From assembly GCA_927911745.1 (NCBI GenBank), contig CAKMQF010000089.1, positions 1 through 19,249 of the forward strand: a DNA stretch of 19,249 bases. The letters run 5' to 3'. This document shows positions 450 to 19,098 of this stretch, piece after piece. Positions within the stretch are counted from its first letter, which is position 1. Every line of letters starts with the position of its first letter. Below the pieces are notes generated by a model that worked only from the letters and a program-made list of their open reading frames with translations, was not told the DNA's origin and did not search any database. A program made the position numbers and the translations under genes. This stretch comes from an uncultured Gemella sp. (GTDB lineage: Bacteria; Bacillota; Bacilli; Staphylococcales; Gemellaceae).

Positions 450-881
450 TTACTCTGTATATTCATTACCTACTACATCTTTAAGGATTTGATCCCATTT
501 CGGTAAGTTACGGTCTATTCTAATAGCACGATCGCTATCAGTACCAAGAATATTGTGAGAACTTGTAGCAATAATCACAACTTCCCCATCCACATAGAAT
601 TCATATGAAAATATAGTTTTAATACCACTATGTTTTTCAATCCATGTTTTAATAAAGATATCTTGGCTATTGTATCTGATATTTGATCTAATAGAATACT
701 TAACATCAATATCAGCATAATATAAATCATAGTTTATTAAAGAATCAATATCAATACCTAAACCATTTAAATAATATTTTTTAGCTAAATTCATCCAATC
801 ATAAACATATTTATTATCTAAAAATCCTGATTGATTGAAGAATTTTTTTTCTAATTTGAATTTTATAGTTTTTTCGTACAC
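450..881 (-). CDS. Acyl-CoA thioesterase-like hotdog-fold protein
   Basis: This 143-residue protein has the size and pattern of the YbgC/FadM 4HBT hotdog thioesterases: an N-terminal beta strand, a segment around 'SGFLDNKYVYDWMNLAKKY' matching the family's helix, then alternating strands ending in 'VDGEVVIIATSSHNIL'. Such enzymes hydrolyse acyl-CoA or acyl-ACP thioesters in the cytoplasm. The start is GTG at 881: an AAAGGAG ribosome site sits 7 bases upstream, inside the last codons of plsC, and the plsC stop is one base away, so the two are translationally coupled. The usual catalytic Asp of the 'D.D..GH' motif is not evident; the aligned region reads 'FNQSGFLDN', with Asn where Asp is expected. 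Enzymatic activity and substrate are therefore uncertain. The placement after plsC suggests a lipid-related role. Confidence 0.65.
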   Translation of the reverse strand: MYEKTIKFKLEKKFFNQSGFLDNKYVYDWMNLAKKYYLNGLGIDIDSLINYDLYYADIDVKYSIRSNIRYNSQDIFIKTWIEKHSGIKTIFSYEFYVDGEVVIIATSSHNILGTDSDRAIRIDRNLPKWDQILKDVVGNEYTE

Positions 882-882
882 T

Positions 883-1470
883 TTACTTCTCCTTTGAAAT
901 CAATTCAGAAATGCTCTCCATTAAAATCGCAGTAATTTCATCATGACTCTTACCTTCTTCTTTTAATGCCGCTGCATCAATTTCATCCCCAACTACAATC
1001 TTAATACTAGAAAAAAATCTGAAATTTTTATTAGGTATAATTGCAAATGGGATAATTTTAGTTTTTGCTCTAGTTGCGATAAATGATGCTCCGTTATGAG
1101 ACTCACCTAAATCTAGTTCTTTAGAGTGCGAGCGAGTTCCTTCTGGGAAAATCCCAACAACTTCACCTTCTCTAAGTAATCTTATACTGTTATTTATCGC
1201 CGTTCTATCAAACGTTCCACGCTTAATTGGTATTGCTCCTGTAGCTTCTAAAGCCTGTTTCACAAAAATAATTTTAAATAATTCTTCTTTTGCTATGAAG
1301 CGTATTTTTTTATCGAAGAATGCTGGAAATAATAGTGGGTCGTGATTGCTCAAGTGATTTCCAGAAATTACAACACCTTTAGCATTCTCGATTTTTTCTT
1401 TATTAACAATAGTAACCTTGTAAAAAGTTTTATAATACAGTGCTAATAACTTTCTAATAAAATTATACAT
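883..1470 (-). CDS. plsC: 1-acyl-sn-glycerol-3-phosphate acyltransferase
   Basis: This 195-residue enzyme of the PlsC/LPLAT family transfers an acyl chain to the sn-2 position of lysophosphatidic acid, making phosphatidic acid at the inner face of the membrane. The acyltransferase motif NHLSNHD gives the catalytic H39-x4-D44. A second block, FPEGTRS at residues 108-114, binds the glycerol phosphate, and a 'GAIPIKRG' block at about 78-85 is also typical. A hydrophobic N-terminal segment fits peripheral membrane attachment. The length is normal for a minimal PlsC. The ATG at 1470 has an AGGAG site 6 bases upstream. It follows cmk by 19 bases and is followed immediately by the thioesterase gene, so all three are probably one transcript. 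The cmk-plsC pairing is common in Bacillota. Confidence 0.93.
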   Translation of the reverse strand: MYNFIRKLLALYYKTFYKVTIVNKEKIENAKGVVISGNHLSNHDPLLFPAFFDKKIRFIAKEELFKIIFVKQALEATGAIPIKRGTFDRTAINNSIRLLREGEVVGIFPEGTRSHSKELDLGESHNGASFIATRAKTKIIPFAIIPNKNFRFFSSIKIVVGDEIDAAALKEEGKSHDEITAILMESISELISKEK

Positions 1471-2491: not shown

Positions 2492-4598
2492 TTATTTTAA
2501 TTTCAATCCTGCTAAACCTGCTAAAGCATTGTTTTCTAATTTTTCTTGTTTCATGTATTTTTTCATATCTACACGACTTGCTTTGTCTTTTTTACTAGAT
2601 TTAATTCGTTTATCTACTTCTTTTTGTTTCAACGAATTACCACATTGACAACGATAAGTAGCATTTTCACCATTACCAAATAAAGTCATCTTTTTATGAC
2701 AATTATCACAACGAAGATTTGTTAATCTACTAATGACCTTACGATTTCGACAAGATGGACTAGAACATTTCAGCATCTTTGTACCTTTTTTATCTACCTC
2801 AAGCATGAAACTACCACATTCTTCACATTTCTTACCACTAATGTTATCATGTTTAAATCTATCTTCGCTATCTTTAATCTCTGCAATACATGATTTCGTA
2901 TATTCTTTAACATCATTTAAGAACTTATCTTTTGAAAGTTTGTTCTTAGCAATATTATCTAATTGTTTCTCCCAAACTGCAGTTAAAGATGGACTCTTAA
3001 GATTTTTAGGTACTAAGTTTAGAAGTTGCTTCGCTTTGTTAGTAGTTTTGATTCGTCCATTATCTAAAACTAAGTAATCATTTGTAAATAATTTTTCTAA
3101 TATATCTGCTCGTGTTGCTACAGTACCAATACCATTTGTTTCTTTAAGAATCTTTCTCTCATTCTCATCATCAACAAACTCAAATGGATTTTCCATCGCA
3201 TAAATTAGAGTACCTTCAGTATAATGACTAGGTGGAGTTGTTTGTTTTTTATTATAAACTAATGATTCCATTTTATAAATACCATTTTGAAGATTAACAG
3301 TTTTATTTTGCAATTCTTCTCTACTTAATTCTTTATATCCCTCTTGAATTACTTTTAATCCTTTGCAGTAAACACCTTATTTCAAGATTAAATGAATACG
3401 TAGTCTCTTCATATTTATACTCTGGTAATAAATTCTCTAAAAATCTTTTCGCTACTAAATTATATATTTTAGTCTCCATATCAGACATCGACATATAGTT
3501 TGCTCTTTGCTCAGTAGGAATAATAGCGTGGTGATCACTAACTTTTGCATTGTTAATAATCTTCTTAGTATTATAGTCTTTTACTTTAAGTAATGTTGCG
3601 GTAGTTTCTTTAAAATCTCCACCAATTGCTTGAATACGATCTTTTAAAGTGTTCTTCATATCACTAGTTAAATATCTACTATCTGTTCTTGGGTAAGTTA
3701 ATACCTTATGTCTTTCATATAGACTTTGAACGATGTTTAATGTTTGTTTCGGTGACATACCGAATAACGCACTCGCTGTTTGCTGAATATCAGTTAAATT
3801 ATACAATGGCTTTGCTGATGATGTTTTAGATTTTTTCTGAACATCATTAAATTTAATTTCTTTGTTGATGTTCTTTTTAATGAATTGTTCTGCTTTTTCC
3901 AGATTAAATTCACTATTACCGCAGCTAAACTTAACACCATCGATTTGTGCTTCAAAAGTATAATAATCTTTTGGTTTAAATTGTTTAATCTTTTCTTCTC
4001 TCTCAAAAACCATCTGCAATGTTGGAGTTTGAACACGACCACAGTTAAGTGACGCATTGTATTTTAATGTTAATGCTCTAGATGCATTTATTCCAACTAA
4101 CCAGTCAGCATTAGCACGTGCTATACCTGAATGATATAGTCCTAAGTATTCTTTCCCATCTTTTAGATTTCTAAATCCATCTTTAATCGCCTTATCTGTT
4201 ACAGAAGAAATCCAAAGTCTTTTTACATTTTTATTGCATTTCGCTTTATCGATAATATAACGAGCAACAAGCTCCCCTTCACGACCTGCATCAGTCGCAA
4301 TGATAACTTCATTAACATCTTTTCTGTTTAAAGCATTTTCTACTACTTTATATTGTTTGAAAGTTTTCTTAATTATTTCTGTTTTCATAAACTTTGGAAT
4401 CATCGGTAAATTTTCTAAGCTTACATTATTAAATTCCTTATATTTATCAGGCGTTTGAAGGGTGATTAAATGACCTAATGCCCAAGTAACAACATATTTA
4501 TCCCCTTCAAGACAACCATTTTTATTATTTCTCGCTCCAAGATTCCTCGCTATATCACGAGCAACCGAAGGCTTTTCACAAAGTACAACACTTTTCAT
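2492..4598 (-). CDS. topB: DNA topoisomerase III, interrupted by small indels
   Basis: This type IA topoisomerase relaxes and decatenates DNA by passing one strand through another. From ATG at 4598 (GAGGA site upstream; an in-frame GTG at 4613 overlaps that site, so I reject it) it opens with KSVVLCEKPSVARDIA. The Toprim acids follow in ATDAGREGELVAR (residues 101-113), then QTPTL at 190-194 and the catalytic tyrosine Y302 in LTYPRTDSRYL. The C-terminal part includes GIGTVATRADI and a zinc-ribbon-like tail with CxxC pairs (CEECG, CDNC, CQCG). Around 3362-3380 the frame shifts. Restoring one A in each of two short A-runs gives EIKVFTAKGLKVIQEG, joining both halves into about 700 residues, the family norm. 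No neighbouring conjugation genes are present, so it is probably chromosomal. Confidence 0.92.
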
Positions 4599-4736
4599 CA
4601 ATAAATTCCTCACATATATATTCTTTACTTCATTAATTATTATAATAGAAATAATTTAAAATAACTAGTAAAATTAGAAAGATAATACATACTGCATTGA
4701 TTATAACTATAAAAACTAATCACAATTTTTCTCCAA

Positions 4737-5725
4737 CTAATACATAGTTACATAAAAAATTTCTTCTAGATCAAATTCAATTATTGTTGGAGGCACTCCT
4801 ATTTCTGTAAGAAGCATATTCTTATCTTCTGGATATTTTGACAAATAATCTTTTAAAATACTTCTAGCTCCTATATTTAATTTTTCATTTAAATCCTTTG
4901 GCATAAAAACTAAAAAATTTTTATGAATGTAAATAAATCATTTTTACCGTAACCAAATCTGTATAATTTATTAGAAATACCAGATTTATTATGAAAAATT
5001 GTATTAAATCTAATATATTCCCTATAGGTAGTGAAATTATAAACCCTTCCTCCATGAGCTGTTCTATTTCTAAACTGATAAACAAGAGCTATACCATCTG
5101 CAAATAATTTTTTTAATTCTTTTTTTTCTTCAATTTCTCTGGTTGAAACACCAAATATTGTACTAATTACTCTATTTTTTACTTCTGCTTTTTGCTCCAT
5201 ATAAAAATAATACATATTACCAAATGTAGCCCCCTTGAAAAGTATCCATGGAGGAATATGGTTATGACTTTCACGGTAATGTTTAAAAGGCTGAGCATTA
5301 CAATTCTTTATCAGATTAAATTTATCTAATAAAATATCTAGATGAAATACTTTGCAATTGTCCTTTATAAAAAACCTCTTCCCCTTATAATTTTCCCTTT
5401 TTAGATATTCACTTTCAATAACCCCATATTTTTTAGATATTTCATAAGCTAATACATTTTTCAATATAATTTCAAACTCTAACGTTATATTCAATACTAT
5501 ATCTTTTATATCACTATCCAATTTAAACAATGAAAACATGTGTTCAAAAGTTACTCCATCTTTGTATGTGTCTATATCTTTTAAAAGTAAATTTTTATAA
5601 CCATTCACTATTTCATAATAACCATATAACTTTAGATTTTCTTTAGCTTTTTCTTCATTCAGTATTCTTAAATTTCTAGATTTCAATAATTTTATTTGAT
5701 TATCTATATTATTAAATTTTTTCAT
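4737..5725 (-). CDS. Abi_2/AbiF-family abortive infection protein with HEPN motif
   Basis: Proteins of the Abi_2 (AbiD/AbiF) family cause abortive infection, and some act as RNA-controlled toxins. I choose ATG at 5725, which follows a GTGGGG ribosome site; the in-frame GTG at 5740 is that site. Visible family features are the N-terminal 'GYYEIVNGYKNLLL' (residues 35-48), HNHIPPWILFKGATFGN (154-170), and FRNRTAHGGRVYN (218-230). The last contains R219-x4-H224, the RNase signature of HEPN domains. The main frame stops at 4910, but one extra A in the run opposite 4918-4922 continues it for another 58 or so residues to TAG at 4737. These end in a MLLTEIGVPP block resembling the 'MGFP.NW' that closes Abi_2 proteins. 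The total is then about 329 residues, typical of the family. A small structured RNA lies immediately upstream on the same strand. Confidence 0.88.
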
Positions 5726-5754
5726 AATCTTATTCCCCACTCACTTCAAAATGC

Positions 5755-5781
5755 AAAAAAGCCCCTGTGTAGACAAGAGCT
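5755..5781 (-). terminator. Intrinsic terminator ending the abi-linked small RNA
   Basis: A 9-bp stem AGCTCTTGT/ACAGGGGCT (with two G-U pairs in minus-strand RNA) around the loop CTAC is followed by six T. Readthrough would be needed to transcribe abi from the upstream promoter, since no other clear promoter lies in the remaining 30 bases. Confidence 0.8.
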
Positions 5782-5815
5782 TTTAGGTAGGACGAACCAC
5801 GTCCATTTCTTTATT
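5755..5815 (-). ncRNA. Small structured RNA upstream of abi (abiF-RNA-like)
   Basis: A predicted transcript of about 61 nt starts 7 bases after a perfect promoter and ends in an intrinsic terminator, 30 bases before the abi ATG. It begins with an A-rich leader. Next comes a hairpin GGACG-UGGUU-CGUCC (5804 to 5790). Its loop GGU can pair with the ACC that follows (5788-5786), making a compact H-type pseudoknot. The terminator hairpin follows. From memory, a conserved 'abiF' RNA motif next to Abi_2 genes has been described, and AbiF-ncRNA pairs have been linked to toxin-antitoxin function and to the ancestry of Cas13. The position, size and pseudoknot fit that, but I could not run a covariance search. 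It could also act in cis as an attenuator of abi. Confidence 0.75.
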
Positions 5816-5821
5816 AACTTC

Positions 5822-5850
5822 ATTATATAATATATCTATACCCCTGTCAA
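5822..5850 (-). promoter_or_regulatory. Consensus sigma-A promoter for the small RNA and abi
   Basis: On the minus strand TTGACA (5850-5845) and TATAAT (5827-5822) are separated by exactly 17 bases. Both hexamers match consensus perfectly, making it the strongest promoter visible in the window. That suits an abundant small RNA more than a rarely needed toxin mRNA. Confidence 0.85.
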
Positions 5851-5983
5851 CAATTCACCTTTAAAACTGTAAATATATATCTATATAGATTTTCACTTTA
5901 AAACATTTCATATATATTATAATTGATTATCTTTAAAATAACTAGTAGAACATATAATCACTATCAATTCCTTTATACTTTAG

Positions 5984-10125: not shown

Positions 10126-11055
10126 TTAGAATTCAAAATCAATACCTGTTTTATTTCTCTCATAAAACCATTTAACTAGTCTATCCCTAGTTAAATTATC
10201 AGCAAGAAGATTGTTTAAAGAAATTTGTGCATCTAAATAACGTATACATTTGTTAGCAAGTTCTACTCCTTCAGGTTTATTAAGTTTAAGTTGAATTTGA
10301 GCTAATATGTAGTTAAAAGCATTCATATGATACTGAAAATGAGTAACATTACTATAATACGTCTTGAGTAAATTTATAGCTTCTATACACCTTTCTTCAG
10401 CCTCTTCAACAAATCCTCTTCTTGATAATAAAGCTACAGCACCATGTATTAATATCAGAGATCTTTCCGATCTGTCAACAGCAAATATACTATCTGAAGT
10501 AACAGGTTTCATGTTTTCCTCTATTACGCGACGAATAAAATCATCTAAAAATTCTTCTGCTGTAGATGTTCTTAACATAAAAGTTAATGTTAGCATTTCA
10601 TTAGAATTATGACTATCTAAACTTCTTAGATGATTTAAAACAATTTCCCTATTTTCTTTAATTATCTTAGGTCCCTCAAGATCACCAGATATACTAATAA
10701 TCTGATCAATATATAGTCTTTCATTCATACTTATTTTATCTTTTTGTAAGCTTTTTACAGCCAATGATCTAATAGCTGAGGTACTTCCTGACGTATCTAG
10801 ATTTCTCACTTCTCTTAAAAATTCAGATATATCGAAACCTACAAGTGGTATATATTCAGAAAAATAATCATGGTAACTAATTCCAATATTTCTCAAAAGT
10901 TGCTCAAAAATCTCTAAAGATACACTTGTTTCATCTGCTTCAAATCTGATCAATGTTCTTACAGAAATTGCATCTCCTGCAGCATCTTTTAATTTGACGC
11001 CACGACCTTCTCTAATCTGTTTGAAGATCTTTCCATGCATTTTATTATCGTCCAT
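10126..11055 (-). CDS. Rgg/GadR/MutR-family transcriptional regulator (complete)
   Basis: This 309-residue cytoplasmic regulator is intact in one frame. The N-terminal helix-turn-helix covers about residues 6-60, with HGKIFKQIREGRGVKLKDA, SVRTLIRFEADETSVS and EQLLRNIGISYHDYF. The remaining 240 residues are the helical-repeat peptide-binding region of the family, ending in KTGIDFEF, an ending shared by all three rgg loci in this window. Rgg proteins bind short hydrophobic signalling peptides and activate or repress neighbouring genes. An AAGGAGG site lies 11 bases before ATG 11055. A TATAAT lies at 11095-11090 on the minus strand. Its likely targets by position are the ABC exporter operon downstream or the small genes upstream. 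I could not find a convincing pheromone gene. Confidence 0.9.
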   Translation of the reverse strand: MDDNKMHGKIFKQIREGRGVKLKDAAGDAISVRTLIRFEADETSVSLEIFEQLLRNIGISYHDYFSEYIPLVGFDISEFLREVRNLDTSGSTSAIRSLAVKSLQKDKISMNERLYIDQIISISGDLEGPKIIKENREIVLNHLRSLDSHNSNEMLTLTFMLRTSTAEEFLDDFIRRVIEENMKPVTSDSIFAVDRSERSLILIHGAVALLSRRGFVEEAEERCIEAINLLKTYYSNVTHFQYHMNAFNYILAQIQLKLNKPEGVELANKCIRYLDAQISLNNLLADNLTRDRLVKWFYERNKTGIDFEF

Positions 11056-13092: not shown

Positions 13093-15986
13093 TTAGTTTT
13101 GTTTATCTTTTCTTTTTAGTCTTGCGGCTACTGCTAAGGCTACTAAACCTGCTACTGTTGCCATTCCACTTTGGCTTTCACCTGTATTAGGTAAAGTTTT
13201 TAATCCATTTGAATTAACACTTGGATGTTGTAAGGCAGGTTGGTTATTTGATGAACCTGGAGCTTTGTCCTCTGATTTTGCAGGTACGTTTGGTGTTTTT
13301 GGCTTATTAGGTGTACCAGGTGTTGTTGGTTGTTCTGGTGTTTCTGGCTTGACAGGAGCACCTGGTATTATTGGCTGACCTGGTAATACAGGCTTATCAG
13401 GAGTCTCTGGTCTTTCAGATTTTTTCTTTTTCTCTTCTTCATCTTTTAGATATTTCTCAAGATCAAACTCTATTGGATCTATTGTATTATTATCAGCTAA
13501 TACTGCCCATTTAAAGTTTTCAAGTTTGAATTGTCTTTGTACTTTTTCTAATTCTTTAGTGTCATCAGCTAATTGTTTAGAAATTGCGATTAATTCAGCT
13601 TTTAGTGTACTTAAATCTTTTTCCAGTTCAGCTTTGACTACTGTTGCTTTAGCTAATTTTTCTTTATTTTTATCTAACTCTAGTCTATCTTTTCTTATTT
13701 TAGCGAAATTATCTTTTGCTTCATCTAATGCTTTTTTAGAAGCTTCTATTTCATTTTCAAGTTGAGAGATTTTAGCTGTAGCTGTACCAATTTCACCTTC
13801 AACGTCTTTTTGTAGTGCTTTTGCTCTGTCTAATAGTTTAGTTCTTTCTTCTACATCTTTTTGAGCAGCGTCTAATCAGCAGCTAATTTAGTCATTTTTT
13901 CAACATATTTAACGTTATCTAATTCAAGTTGGTCTACAACTTTTTGTTGTTCATCTGCTTTAGTTGTTAAGTTGTTGATTTTAGCGTCAACTTCTTGTAC
14001 TTTAGCAGTTGCTTTTTCTGTTTGTTTTTCAGTAGCTTTAAGTTCATCCAATACTTTAGTAGCACTGTCTACGTTAGCTTTAGCGTCTACTACTGGTTGT
14101 TCTTTGCTTTCACGAACTTTTACAGCGTCAGCATATGCTTTCTTGAAACTGTCAAGATCTGGTACTGCTGGTAATTCTACTGTATCTTTTGATTCGTTGC
14201 TGTATTTAGCGATAAAGTTTTGTTTAGCTCTTTCTTCAGCCTCATCACTTTGGTCATCATAAGTCCTGTTACCATCTTTGTCATCAAATCCTGGGATAGC
14301 ATTATCTTCATCAACTTTAACATAAGAGATTTTAATAATACCTTGTTTTGGCAATTTAGCTACCTCTTTTTCAAATTCATCAAAAACATCAAGTGGCATA
14401 GATTTGAACCCTAAAATGTTCCCGAATTCATCTAATTTAAGGTATTGTTTATTCTTTCAACAAATTTTTTTTGAAAGTCGATTGATATTTTCATTTTTAC
14501 CCACATTTTCGAAATGTGCAACACCAAGTCCCATTGGTGTTTTCGCTTTATATAATTCTTCAGCATGACCATAACCACCTGTAATATTTCCCTCATAGAA
14601 GAATAACATTACTGAGTTATAAACATGTTCGTATAATGCGTTTCTTGACATTTTGTGATCACTAAATGTTGTTGAACCTGCATTATAAAGGTTTTCGTAG
14701 TAGTTTTTACCTCTGATTAAACCATGTTTGGCTGCAACTTCAGAAATACCTTTGATGTAGTGACCACCGTGTAAATCGTAGTGGTTATCTCTCATTACAG
14801 TTTCTGTGATTTCTTTTGCTAATTGCATTGAATTTTTGTTAACTTTTAATGGTTCAAGTCCGAATTGACTACGGATTTGGTTTAATAAGTAAATACCATA
14901 TTGTGACATTTTAAGTCTTTCTTCTTCAGACATGTTTCTTAAGTCGATTTCATAATCATCATCGTGACTATATCTGTTGTAAACAAATTCATGGTTAATT
15001 TCTTTTTCTATAGCTTTTAATTGGTCACGCAATTCTCTACGTTTAGCAAATTTTTCATCTATAGTTAGACCTTTTTGTTTCCAGTTTAGAGTATAATCCA
15101 TGTATTCTTTGAATTTATCTACGAAACGTTGATCTAATGAAATTTTATATTTTACATTTCTACCATAAGGCATCACTACAGCATCATATTCTTCTTTTTT
15201 AGTCGCTTCATCTTTCTTCGCTTCATCAAGTTCAGCTGTCTTAGCTTTTAATTCTTCTTGTTTAGCTTTTAAGTTTTCTTCAGCTTTCTTAGTATCTTCA
15301 GCAAGTTTAGCATCAAATTCTTTAGCTTTCTCTAATTCTTTTTCAGCAACCACTTTATTAGATTTTTCTGTTTCTAATTCTTTTTTAATATCTTCGTTCT
15401 TAGCTTTTTCAGATTCTAGTTTCTTAGTAACATTTTCAGTTCCGTCAATTTCATCTTTGATTTCTTTAGCTTTTGCTTGTTTAGATTCAAGATCTTTAAT
15501 TTTATCCGCAACATCTTTTTTCACTAGTACTAAATCAGATTCTCTTTCTTCTTTTTCAGTATTAGTTTTTTACTAGTTCACTATTTTTTATTTTTTTAAT
15601 TCTTCAGTCGCTGATTCTACATTTTTTTCAGCTTTATTGATATTTTCATCAGTAGCATCTTTATCTCTTTCGATATCTGCCTTAATTTTACTGATTTCAT
15701 TATCATTGTTAGTGATTTCTGTTGTTTTATTTTCAATTGCTTTATTTTTTAAGCTTTCTGCTTCTTTAGATGCATCTACCTTTGCTTGAGCTTTTTCTAC
15801 ATCTTGTTTTGTAGTCTTACCAACTACCTCTTTTTCAATTAGCTTCGGAGCTTTTTCTTCGCTAATTTCATTAGCTTTAACATCACTACCACTAGCTACT
15901 GCTCCAATAAAACTAATTCCTAAAAGAACTGACATAGCTCCTATTTTATTCTTCCTAAGTGAAAACCTTTGTTTTCTTTTTATCAT
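13093..15986 (-). CDS. LPXTG cell-wall surface protein with SEC10/PgrA-like domain, frameshifted
   Basis: Reconstructed, this is a wall-anchored protein of about 960 residues. The N-terminus KQRFSLRKNKIGAMSVLLG is a YSIRK-type signal directing secretion at the septum. A charged coiled coil follows (about 45-270), rich in Lys, Glu and Ala. The central region (about 270-530) reads ISLDQRFVDKFKEYMDYTL, MSQYGIYLLNQIRSQFGLEP, DLHGGHYIKGISEVAAKHGL and GGYGHAEELY. This matches, from memory, the SEC10/PgrA surface-exclusion domain, a CAP-like fold. A second coiled coil, a Pro-rich wall-spanning linker (about 840-920), LPNTGE (coding 13194-13180), a membrane helix and RLKRKDKQN complete it. A stop at 15590-15588 and single-base defects near 15566-15571, 14465-14472, 14436-14438 and 13873-13875 split it, mostly in A/T runs. 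GGAGG precedes ATG 15986. The likely role is adhesion or cell-cell contact. Confidence 0.87.
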
Positions 15987-16247: not shown

Positions 16248-17175
16248 TTAAAATTCAATATCAAGACCTGTTTTATTTGCTTTACAATAAGCTTCATAAG
16301 TCACATCTCTTACCTGTCTGTAATAAGGATCACCAGTAATCTCAGCAACAATATCTTCATATTTTAGAATTTTATTCGCTAATATAACCCCTTCTTCCTT
16401 GTCTTGTAATAAATATAATGAAGCCAATATTGCAACAATTTCCTTAGAAAAAGCAGCCCTATTTAATAACAGAGGATTTTCATTAAATAGTTTAAGTGTC
16501 TCTTTACATCTCTTCTCAGCTAATTCATAATAACCTGATCTTACTAAGAACGATATAGCTACTTTTAACAAATCACAATATACAGCACTCATATATTTAC
16601 TCAAATAATTTCTTACTGGGATATTTTTAAAGCATTCATCAATAATTCTTTCAATATATTCTACTGAATAATCACCTTTTGAAGCCGAATATATTAAAAT
16701 GAACAGTCCGTAAATTTCATCAAATCCCAATTTATTCAATGATTCAATTCTATCCTTTATTATTCTTCTATTCTCTTCAAATAATTCTTTATCCTCTTTC
16801 CAAAGAATATTATTTAAATAAATCAATATAGTTAATCTCTTACTAAATTCGATATCTTTTTTTCTTCAGCTCTTTTTTACATTCATTTACTAACTTTGAA
16901 GAAGAACCTGATTGCAGAAGTTTCTGCAGTCTATTAGCAAATTCCGTAGTTTCAGTGTCTGTATTATCATAATAAAACGTTAAATAATCTAAGTAATTGA
17001 TATCTAAATTTTCTAATAACTTTTCAAATGTGGCTATAGATATACTCGTTTCATCAGATTCAAATCGAATCAATGTTCTCGTAGAGATAATATCACCTGC
17101 CACATCTTTTAATTTATATTCCCTTTCTTCCCTTAGTTTTTTAAAAATACTTCCATGCACATTCTTTTCGGCCAT
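16248..17175 (-). CDS. Rgg/GadR/MutR-family transcriptional regulator, one frameshift
   Basis: This is a second Rgg-type regulator of about 309 residues. The first 110 residues carry the helix-turn-helix: VHGSIFKKLREEREYKLKD, then DIISTRTLIRFESDETSIS and EKLLENLDINYLDYL. The frame breaks at seven A opposite 16857-16863; with six it continues ELKKKDIEFSKRLTILIYLN without interruption. The C-terminal helical-repeat region has 'GYYELAEKRCKETLKLF' and ends KANKTGLDIEF, the same ending as its paralogues. A TAGGAGGT site lies 5 bases before ATG 17175. It stands directly upstream of the LPXTG surface protein gene on the same strand but has its own terminator, so regulation of that gene would be in trans. 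The defect looks like a base-count error. Confidence 0.88.
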
Positions 17176-17475: not shown

Positions 17476-18766
<1,291 letters not shown>

Positions 18767-18831: not shown

Positions 18832-18930
18832 CCATTTTTTTATAAAAAAACTCAAAATTATCGGACAATTTTAATCTTCTTTCACAGTTTATATACTTTT
18901 ATGCGTTTTCATTAAAAACAATTATCATTT

Positions 18931-19098
18931 GGGAGTGACTCAAAAATCGTGATTTCATAGAAATCGATTTTGTCGAGTCACCCCCCACAGTTTATTAGAT
19001 ATCTAAAAAGGTTTTATAAAGCAAATTTAGATATCAATAAACCACTGTGTCTATGAATTCTCATATACACTTTGTTAAAATTTAGGTCTTTTGAGTCA
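18931..19098. repeat. MITE-like hairpin element, copy B
   Basis: This is the second copy of the element at 2315-2486, same orientation. The left hairpin runs from GGGAGTGACTC (18931) to GAGTCACCCCC (ending 18985). Here the terminal inverted repeat is clearer: TGACTCAAAA at 18936-18945 and its exact complement TTTTGAGTCA at 19089-19098. The two copies differ by scattered substitutions and short gaps, so they are not a recent duplication. The element lies between purA's promoter and the next gene's terminator, in a place where it breaks no reading frame. Confidence 0.78.

Follow-up and report, generated by a model that had tools for sequence, protein, structure and literature searches.

An AbiF-type gene preceded by its own short predicted RNA: a probable RNA-restrained toxin module in a Gemella-like genome

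Introduction

In type III toxin-antitoxin systems of the ToxIN kind, the gene for a repetitive RNA antitoxin adjoins the gene for an RNase toxin. Here we describe a cassette on the minus strand of a Gemella sp. contig (CAKMQF010000089.1; 19,249 nt, all of which was analyzed and is called the window) in which an abiF/abiD-like gene is preceded by a short predicted RNA. The cassette would share the RNA-antitoxin logic of ToxIN and differs from it in its predicted HEPN toxin and in its RNA, which holds one clear motif copy and no direct repeat of at least 14 nt, that is, no ToxIN-like tandem repeats.

AbiD and AbiF have been counted among the HEPN families (PMC3710099), an AbiD/F clade with ancestral Cas13 HEPN domains has been reported (PMC12165695), and AbiF-RNA pairs are a proposed root of Cas13 (PMC12165695, PMC12737573). 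According to its published description, AbiFCd of the Clostridioides difficile phi027 prophage is toxic, loses toxicity when R202/H207 are changed, and is neutralized when the RNA RCd22, supplied in cis or in trans, binds it directly (PMC12373285). For PbAbiF, a noncoding RNA is reported to bind the HEPN protein, with the RNase site blocked (PMC12737573, PDB title 8vz6). AbiD1 of Lactococcus lactis pIL105 is reported to be preceded by a transcript of about 50 bases that ends just before the gene, with low readthrough that does not rise upon infection, and phage Orf1 is described as its translational activator (PMC2661086). A literature query combining Gemella with AbiF returned a single paper, which its title marks as unrelated. 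The cassette in this Gemella-like genome is a new example of the recently described AbiF-RNA kind of system, related to the Cas13 ancestor.

Results and Discussion

Architecture of the cassette

A first-pass annotation of this DNA had proposed a perfect 17-spaced TTGACA/TATAAT promoter, a 5-bp hairpin and a terminator ahead of an abi gene, and our sequence scans recovered all of them (Table 1). Promoter matches with up to two mismatches number 14 in the window, compared with 9.3 expected, and only the perfect one stands out; this strong promoter is probably constitutive. The predicted RNA would start about 7 bases 3′ of TATAAT, and UACC (5789-5786, with ACC at 5788-5786) lies directly 3′ of the hairpin. 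Between positions 4600 and 6050 there are two terminator-like sites, compared with 0.2 in shuffles, the second of which corresponds to the plus-strand reading of the hairpin, and the folding z-score is -2.08. Because the scan listed no minus-strand promoter-like site (at least 9/12) between terminator and gene, the toxin mRNA would be expected to arise from readthrough; as a layout, the proposed readthrough gene with its own small upstream RNA is supported.

Table 1. Coordinates of the cassette and its flanking repeats in the window.
Feature	Position	Strand	Remarks
Sigma-70/SigA-type promoter TTGACA-17-TATAAT	5822..5850	-	sole 12/12 match in window; TTGACA 5850-5845, 17-nt spacer, TATAAT 5827-5822
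AbiF-associated RNA, about 62 nt	5754..5815	-	ends inferred from promoter and terminator
5-bp hairpin GGACG-UGGUU-CGUCC	5790..5804	-	covarying stem in an alignment of 20 selected RNAs
Intrinsic terminator between RNA and gene	5757..5784	-	12 pairs, then T-run
abiF/abiD-like gene (Abi_2, PF07751), main open frame	4910..5725	-	ATG at 5725; profile matches; model predicted local distance difference test (pLDDT) 93.0
HEPN motif RNRTAH (R219, N220, H224)	5054..5071	-	R, N and H invariant
C-terminal piece of abiF, other frame	4740..4916	-	tblastn, 328-aa relative, residues 270-328, 85% identical
Imperfect direct repeat (36 bp), left copy	4638..4673	+	core TAAAATAACTAGTA at 4657-4670
Right copy of direct repeat	5915..5950	+	81% identical; core at 5934-5947

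The gene product matches the Abi_2 profile at 93.1 bits (cut-off 25.6), the PADLOC AbiD model at 133.2 bits and a PHROG abortive infection protein at 194 bits. R219, N220 and H224 are unchanged in all 25 aligned sequences, the window's among them, and the predicted fold matches PDB 8vz6, in agreement with the earlier description of an Abi_2/AbiF HEPN protein with an R219-x4-H224 motif. By analogy with its published relatives, the protein is probably a self-poisoning, RNA-cutting, anti-phage enzyme, which the short upstream RNA most likely keeps off. Hallmarks of Cas13 or a type VI locus were not found: the protein has a single Abi_2 domain, and no CRISPR-repeat family matched the window at E≤1. 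One candidate, CRISPR-DR21, was set aside as chance level (14.3 bits, cut-off 48, E 8.1). Among named matches, the best relatives of the neighboring nucleoside deoxyribosyltransferase come from Gemella and Gemelliphila (81-83%), and the host is on these grounds Gemella-like, as had been supposed.

The cassette resembles AbiFCd/RCd22 in encoding a predicted Abi_2 HEPN toxin behind a SigA promoter, a short RNA and a terminator, in its expected readthrough mRNA, and in its R-N-x-x-x-H motif, of which R and H are reported to be needed for AbiFCd toxicity (PMC12373285). The RNAs differ: RCd22 is described as 132 nt in full, with a major form of 98 nt and two abiF motifs (PMC12373285), whereas the RNA of the window is predicted at about 62 nt, with one hairpin and no match to the Rfam abiF model (RF03085). 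Protein identity is 26% to a C. difficile phage copy (phiCDKH02) and 18% to PbAbiF (PDB 8vz6, Zilberzwige-Tal et al.), the comparison with PbAbiF being one of proteins. AbiD1 (NC_000906) shares the Abi_2 gene, the promoter, the terminated transcript of about 50 bases and readthrough (PMC2661086); unlike the window, its upstream region gave no match at E≤5 to R1, a covariance model described below, and AbiD1 is published as activated by Orf1 at translation.

The RNA element in relatives

DNA surrounding the relatives' genes was taken from genomes, viral contigs, phages and plasmids, and each upstream region was scanned for a promoter (at least 9/12) followed, after 20-80 nt, by a terminator. 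This layout was present, on the same strand as abiF, in 53 of 85 distinct upstream regions (window included). The rule accepted none of 850 shuffled sequences and, of 847 stretches drawn at random from these loci, 17. Distant relatives with other arrangements account for some of the 32 misses, as does the C. difficile control locus itself (L106), and for two of them (L038 and L084) the start-codon rule probably failed.

We aligned 20 RNAs of the window's kind and found that 93.3% of 120 stem cells are standard pairs, compared with 22.5-46.7% for slid partner strands; the first percentage is partly circular because the hairpins had been selected for pairing. With the same selection caveat, a covariation score of 0.794 (0.042-0.219 with the partner strand slid) bears out the compensatory stem changes expected in homologous loci. 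R1, built from 14 RNAs with the window left out, provides an independent test. Its top match in the window, at 5781-5819 on the minus strand, scored 19.9 bits (rough E 0.014), and the next-best place 13.7 bits (E 0.51). When run on 62 further loci, R1 matched 13 times at E≤1, with 12 loci sharing these matches and the remaining 50 having none, a result that adds little because the matched loci largely carry training or near-identical RNAs; L076-L078 and L080 scored 14-16 bits only. Since R1 matches few loci and scores weakly elsewhere, the RNA class is narrow, comprising near relatives of the window protein. AbiF genes at greater distance are preceded by other RNAs. The RNA consists of an AU-rich leader and a 5-6 bp stem-loop, often followed by NACC and then AAAG. 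The window copy and its relatives reveal an RNA class that the Rfam abiF model misses and whose stem and flanks can be scored by a covariance model.

The hairpin had also been read as part of a pseudoknot. The window loop can form 3 bp with ACC, which alone is at chance level; over the 20 RNAs the pseudoknot did no better than chance, with pairing of at least 3 bp available in seven, compared with an expectation of 7.75 from flank swaps between RNAs. Among the six RNAs nearest the window, itself included, all six can pair in this way (p 0.005 with the loop shuffled, p 0.27 with flanks swapped), one of the three pairs being changed on both sides, in one sequence. Judging from these sequences, a pseudoknot in the nearest subgroup is possible.

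Orphan RNAs in prophages

R1 also matched in Streptococcus phage Javan597, where a full promoter-RNA-terminator unit (L127:109-150) does not have its own abiF behind it. The region of this orphan unit spans L127:79-178. A pattern search for exact matches to the Javan597-type RNA among viral contigs returned 10 places. In five (L130, L131, L132, L137 and L138, with L138 truncated at the end of its locus), the cognate AbiF follows 74-75 bases further on. In five of the 10 Streptococcus prophage places, the RNA's own toxin is absent, replaced or internally deleted: L133 has no AbiF behind the RNA, the next AbiF in L134 is 488 bases away, L135 carries a DUF6978 gene (804-1274, minus strand) directly behind the AbiF-type RNA in abiF's place, and L136 and L139 retain only an abiF remnant. 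Three phage records contain a similar unit, namely Javan597 (orphan), IPP5 (the same remnant) and Javan565 (abiF behind). In L134 and Javan597 the orphan unit lies ahead of a second abiF, which in Javan597 has a different RNA of its own. Because some contigs are near-copies of each other, the five orphans are not five independent events; differing junctions indicate at least three. The frequency of RNA loss falls outside the scope of the scan because the scan requires an intact RNA.

An orphan RNA can be a relic or a decoy. The relic state is possible because the toxin must be lost first. The decoy idea is testable because RNA mimicry against ToxIN has been reported (PMC3475682), and orphan prophage RNAs make a possible phage use of the antitoxin RNA against the toxin directly accessible to experiment.

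Insertion site

The direct repeats flanking the cassette lie 1277 bases apart. In five of nine genus-mate genomes (G001, G002, G004, G005 and G009) the flanks of the insert adjoin each other and overlap by 33-38 bases, and it is the overlapping stretch of these empty sites that is doubled in the window as the imperfect repeats; RNA and gene were inserted as a unit. The flanks are 130 and 160 bases apart in G006 and G007, which therefore hold no insert of such size, and G003 and G008, with flanking pieces far apart, were left out of the judgment. The 14-bp core TAAAATAACTAGTA occurs once in six of the nine genomes, in five of these at the empty site. Besides the RNA, the insert holds abiF as its sole listed open reading frame (ORF) of at least 60 codons, and so has no listed recombinase gene. 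None of the nine genomes has a close copy of the window AbiF, while G002, G004, G005 and G006 have other AbiF relatives (24-33% identity) and five have none.

One could read orphans and insertion jointly: AbiF-class RNA would be selected on its own, orphan RNAs may be decoys protecting phages or cells from AbiF, and the cassette in Gemella would represent the form with the toxin, a 1.28-kb unit that lacks a recombinase of its own and moves at a conserved 14-bp site. We regard this combination as unlikely, if worth keeping in view.

Mechanism and alternatives

The locus is very probably a compact AbiF-type, RNA-restrained toxin module, whose working, from transcription through RNA-protein binding and toxicity to trigger and phage defense, can be modeled on its published relatives. 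The promoter would make a short structured RNA ending at the terminator. This RNA would bind the Abi_2 HEPN dimer and block the RNase site, in the manner described for PbAbiF and AbiFCd, and it would be in excess over the toxin mRNA because the latter would come only from occasional readthrough. Phage infection or stress may lower or displace the RNA, which would free the RNase and stop growth.

Several results weigh against such a module. The anticipated Rfam abiF match is absent: RF03085 gave none up to E 10 at 5700-5900, although the positive control, C. difficile phage locus L106, scored 37.6 bits (cut-off 37). None of 39 relatives' loci matched at the cut-off, nor did any of 13 up to E 10 in the same search as the control. 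By its letters, the C. difficile abiF motif has another shape than the window RNA; AbiF RNA covariance models from Zilberzwige-Tal et al. exist (PMC12804078), and the published model with which the window RNA was compared is Rfam's. In the 20-RNA alignment, with its preselected hairpins, two of five measures do not clearly exceed shuffles: five stem pairs are changed on both sides, a number reached by 123 of 500 shuffles, and 15 further pair types occur in stems, reached by 34 of 500. Most of the 12 loci matched by R1 are the same as or close to the training RNAs, L028 being a training locus. The window abiF is split between two frames. Finally, the AbiD1 terminator is reported to be minor for expression, with activation at translation (PMC2661086).

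The frame break could mean that the module has decayed, the gene being a pseudogene and the RNA a relic. The change lies near 4892-4916, as residues 1-278 of the 328-aa relative align at 5725-4892, past the stop at 4910, and residues 270-328 at 4916-4740. That relative, 94% identical to the window protein, is whole, and the promoter, stem, terminator and catalytic residues of the window copy are intact. Indel errors in assembly appear to be the simpler reading because other window genes are split too, among them a topoisomerase (426+273 aa, compared with one 707-aa ORF in G001), and decay seems to us rather improbable.

The AbiD1 precedent allows for a second alternative, in which the upstream RNA acts solely in cis, as a leader or attenuator of abiF that is riboswitch-like or responsive to a phage protein, and does not bind the Abi protein. 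Both the terminator directly before the gene and the published AbiD1 case, with its 50-base terminated transcript and Orf1 activation at translation (PMC2661086), would suit a leader; however, the RNA element recurs 5′ of relatives' genes, the related C. difficile RNA is reported to bind its protein and to work in trans (PMC12373285), and in half of the 10 prophage copies the RNA persists with no intact gene of its own behind it, all of which makes a purely cis-acting role quite improbable. That an unrelated small RNA or terminator lies upstream of the gene by chance, as the lack of any Rfam family at its cut-off there might suggest, is already disfavored and highly improbable given the recurrence of the layout (53 of 85 regions vs. 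17 of 847 random stretches) and the best R1 match falling on the window RNA.

Other features of the window

Split or shortened housekeeping ORFs lie at 2492-4613, 17476-18763 and 1490-1981, the topoisomerase among them; we take others to be purA- and cmk-like, and what is presumably an adenylosuccinate-synthetase-like gene occupies two ORFs. Two similar helix-turn-helix regulator genes, one of them split, are found at 10126-11055 and 16248-17175 on the minus strand, near an ORF at 15588-15986. By eye, we take the regulators to be Rgg-like and the ORF to resemble the start of a YSIRK-type surface protein. At 18917-19060 on the plus strand, a sub-threshold match to Staphylococcus small RNA S35 (RF02894; 41.4 bits, cut-off 69, E 1.2e-7) is accompanied by a long inverted repeat.
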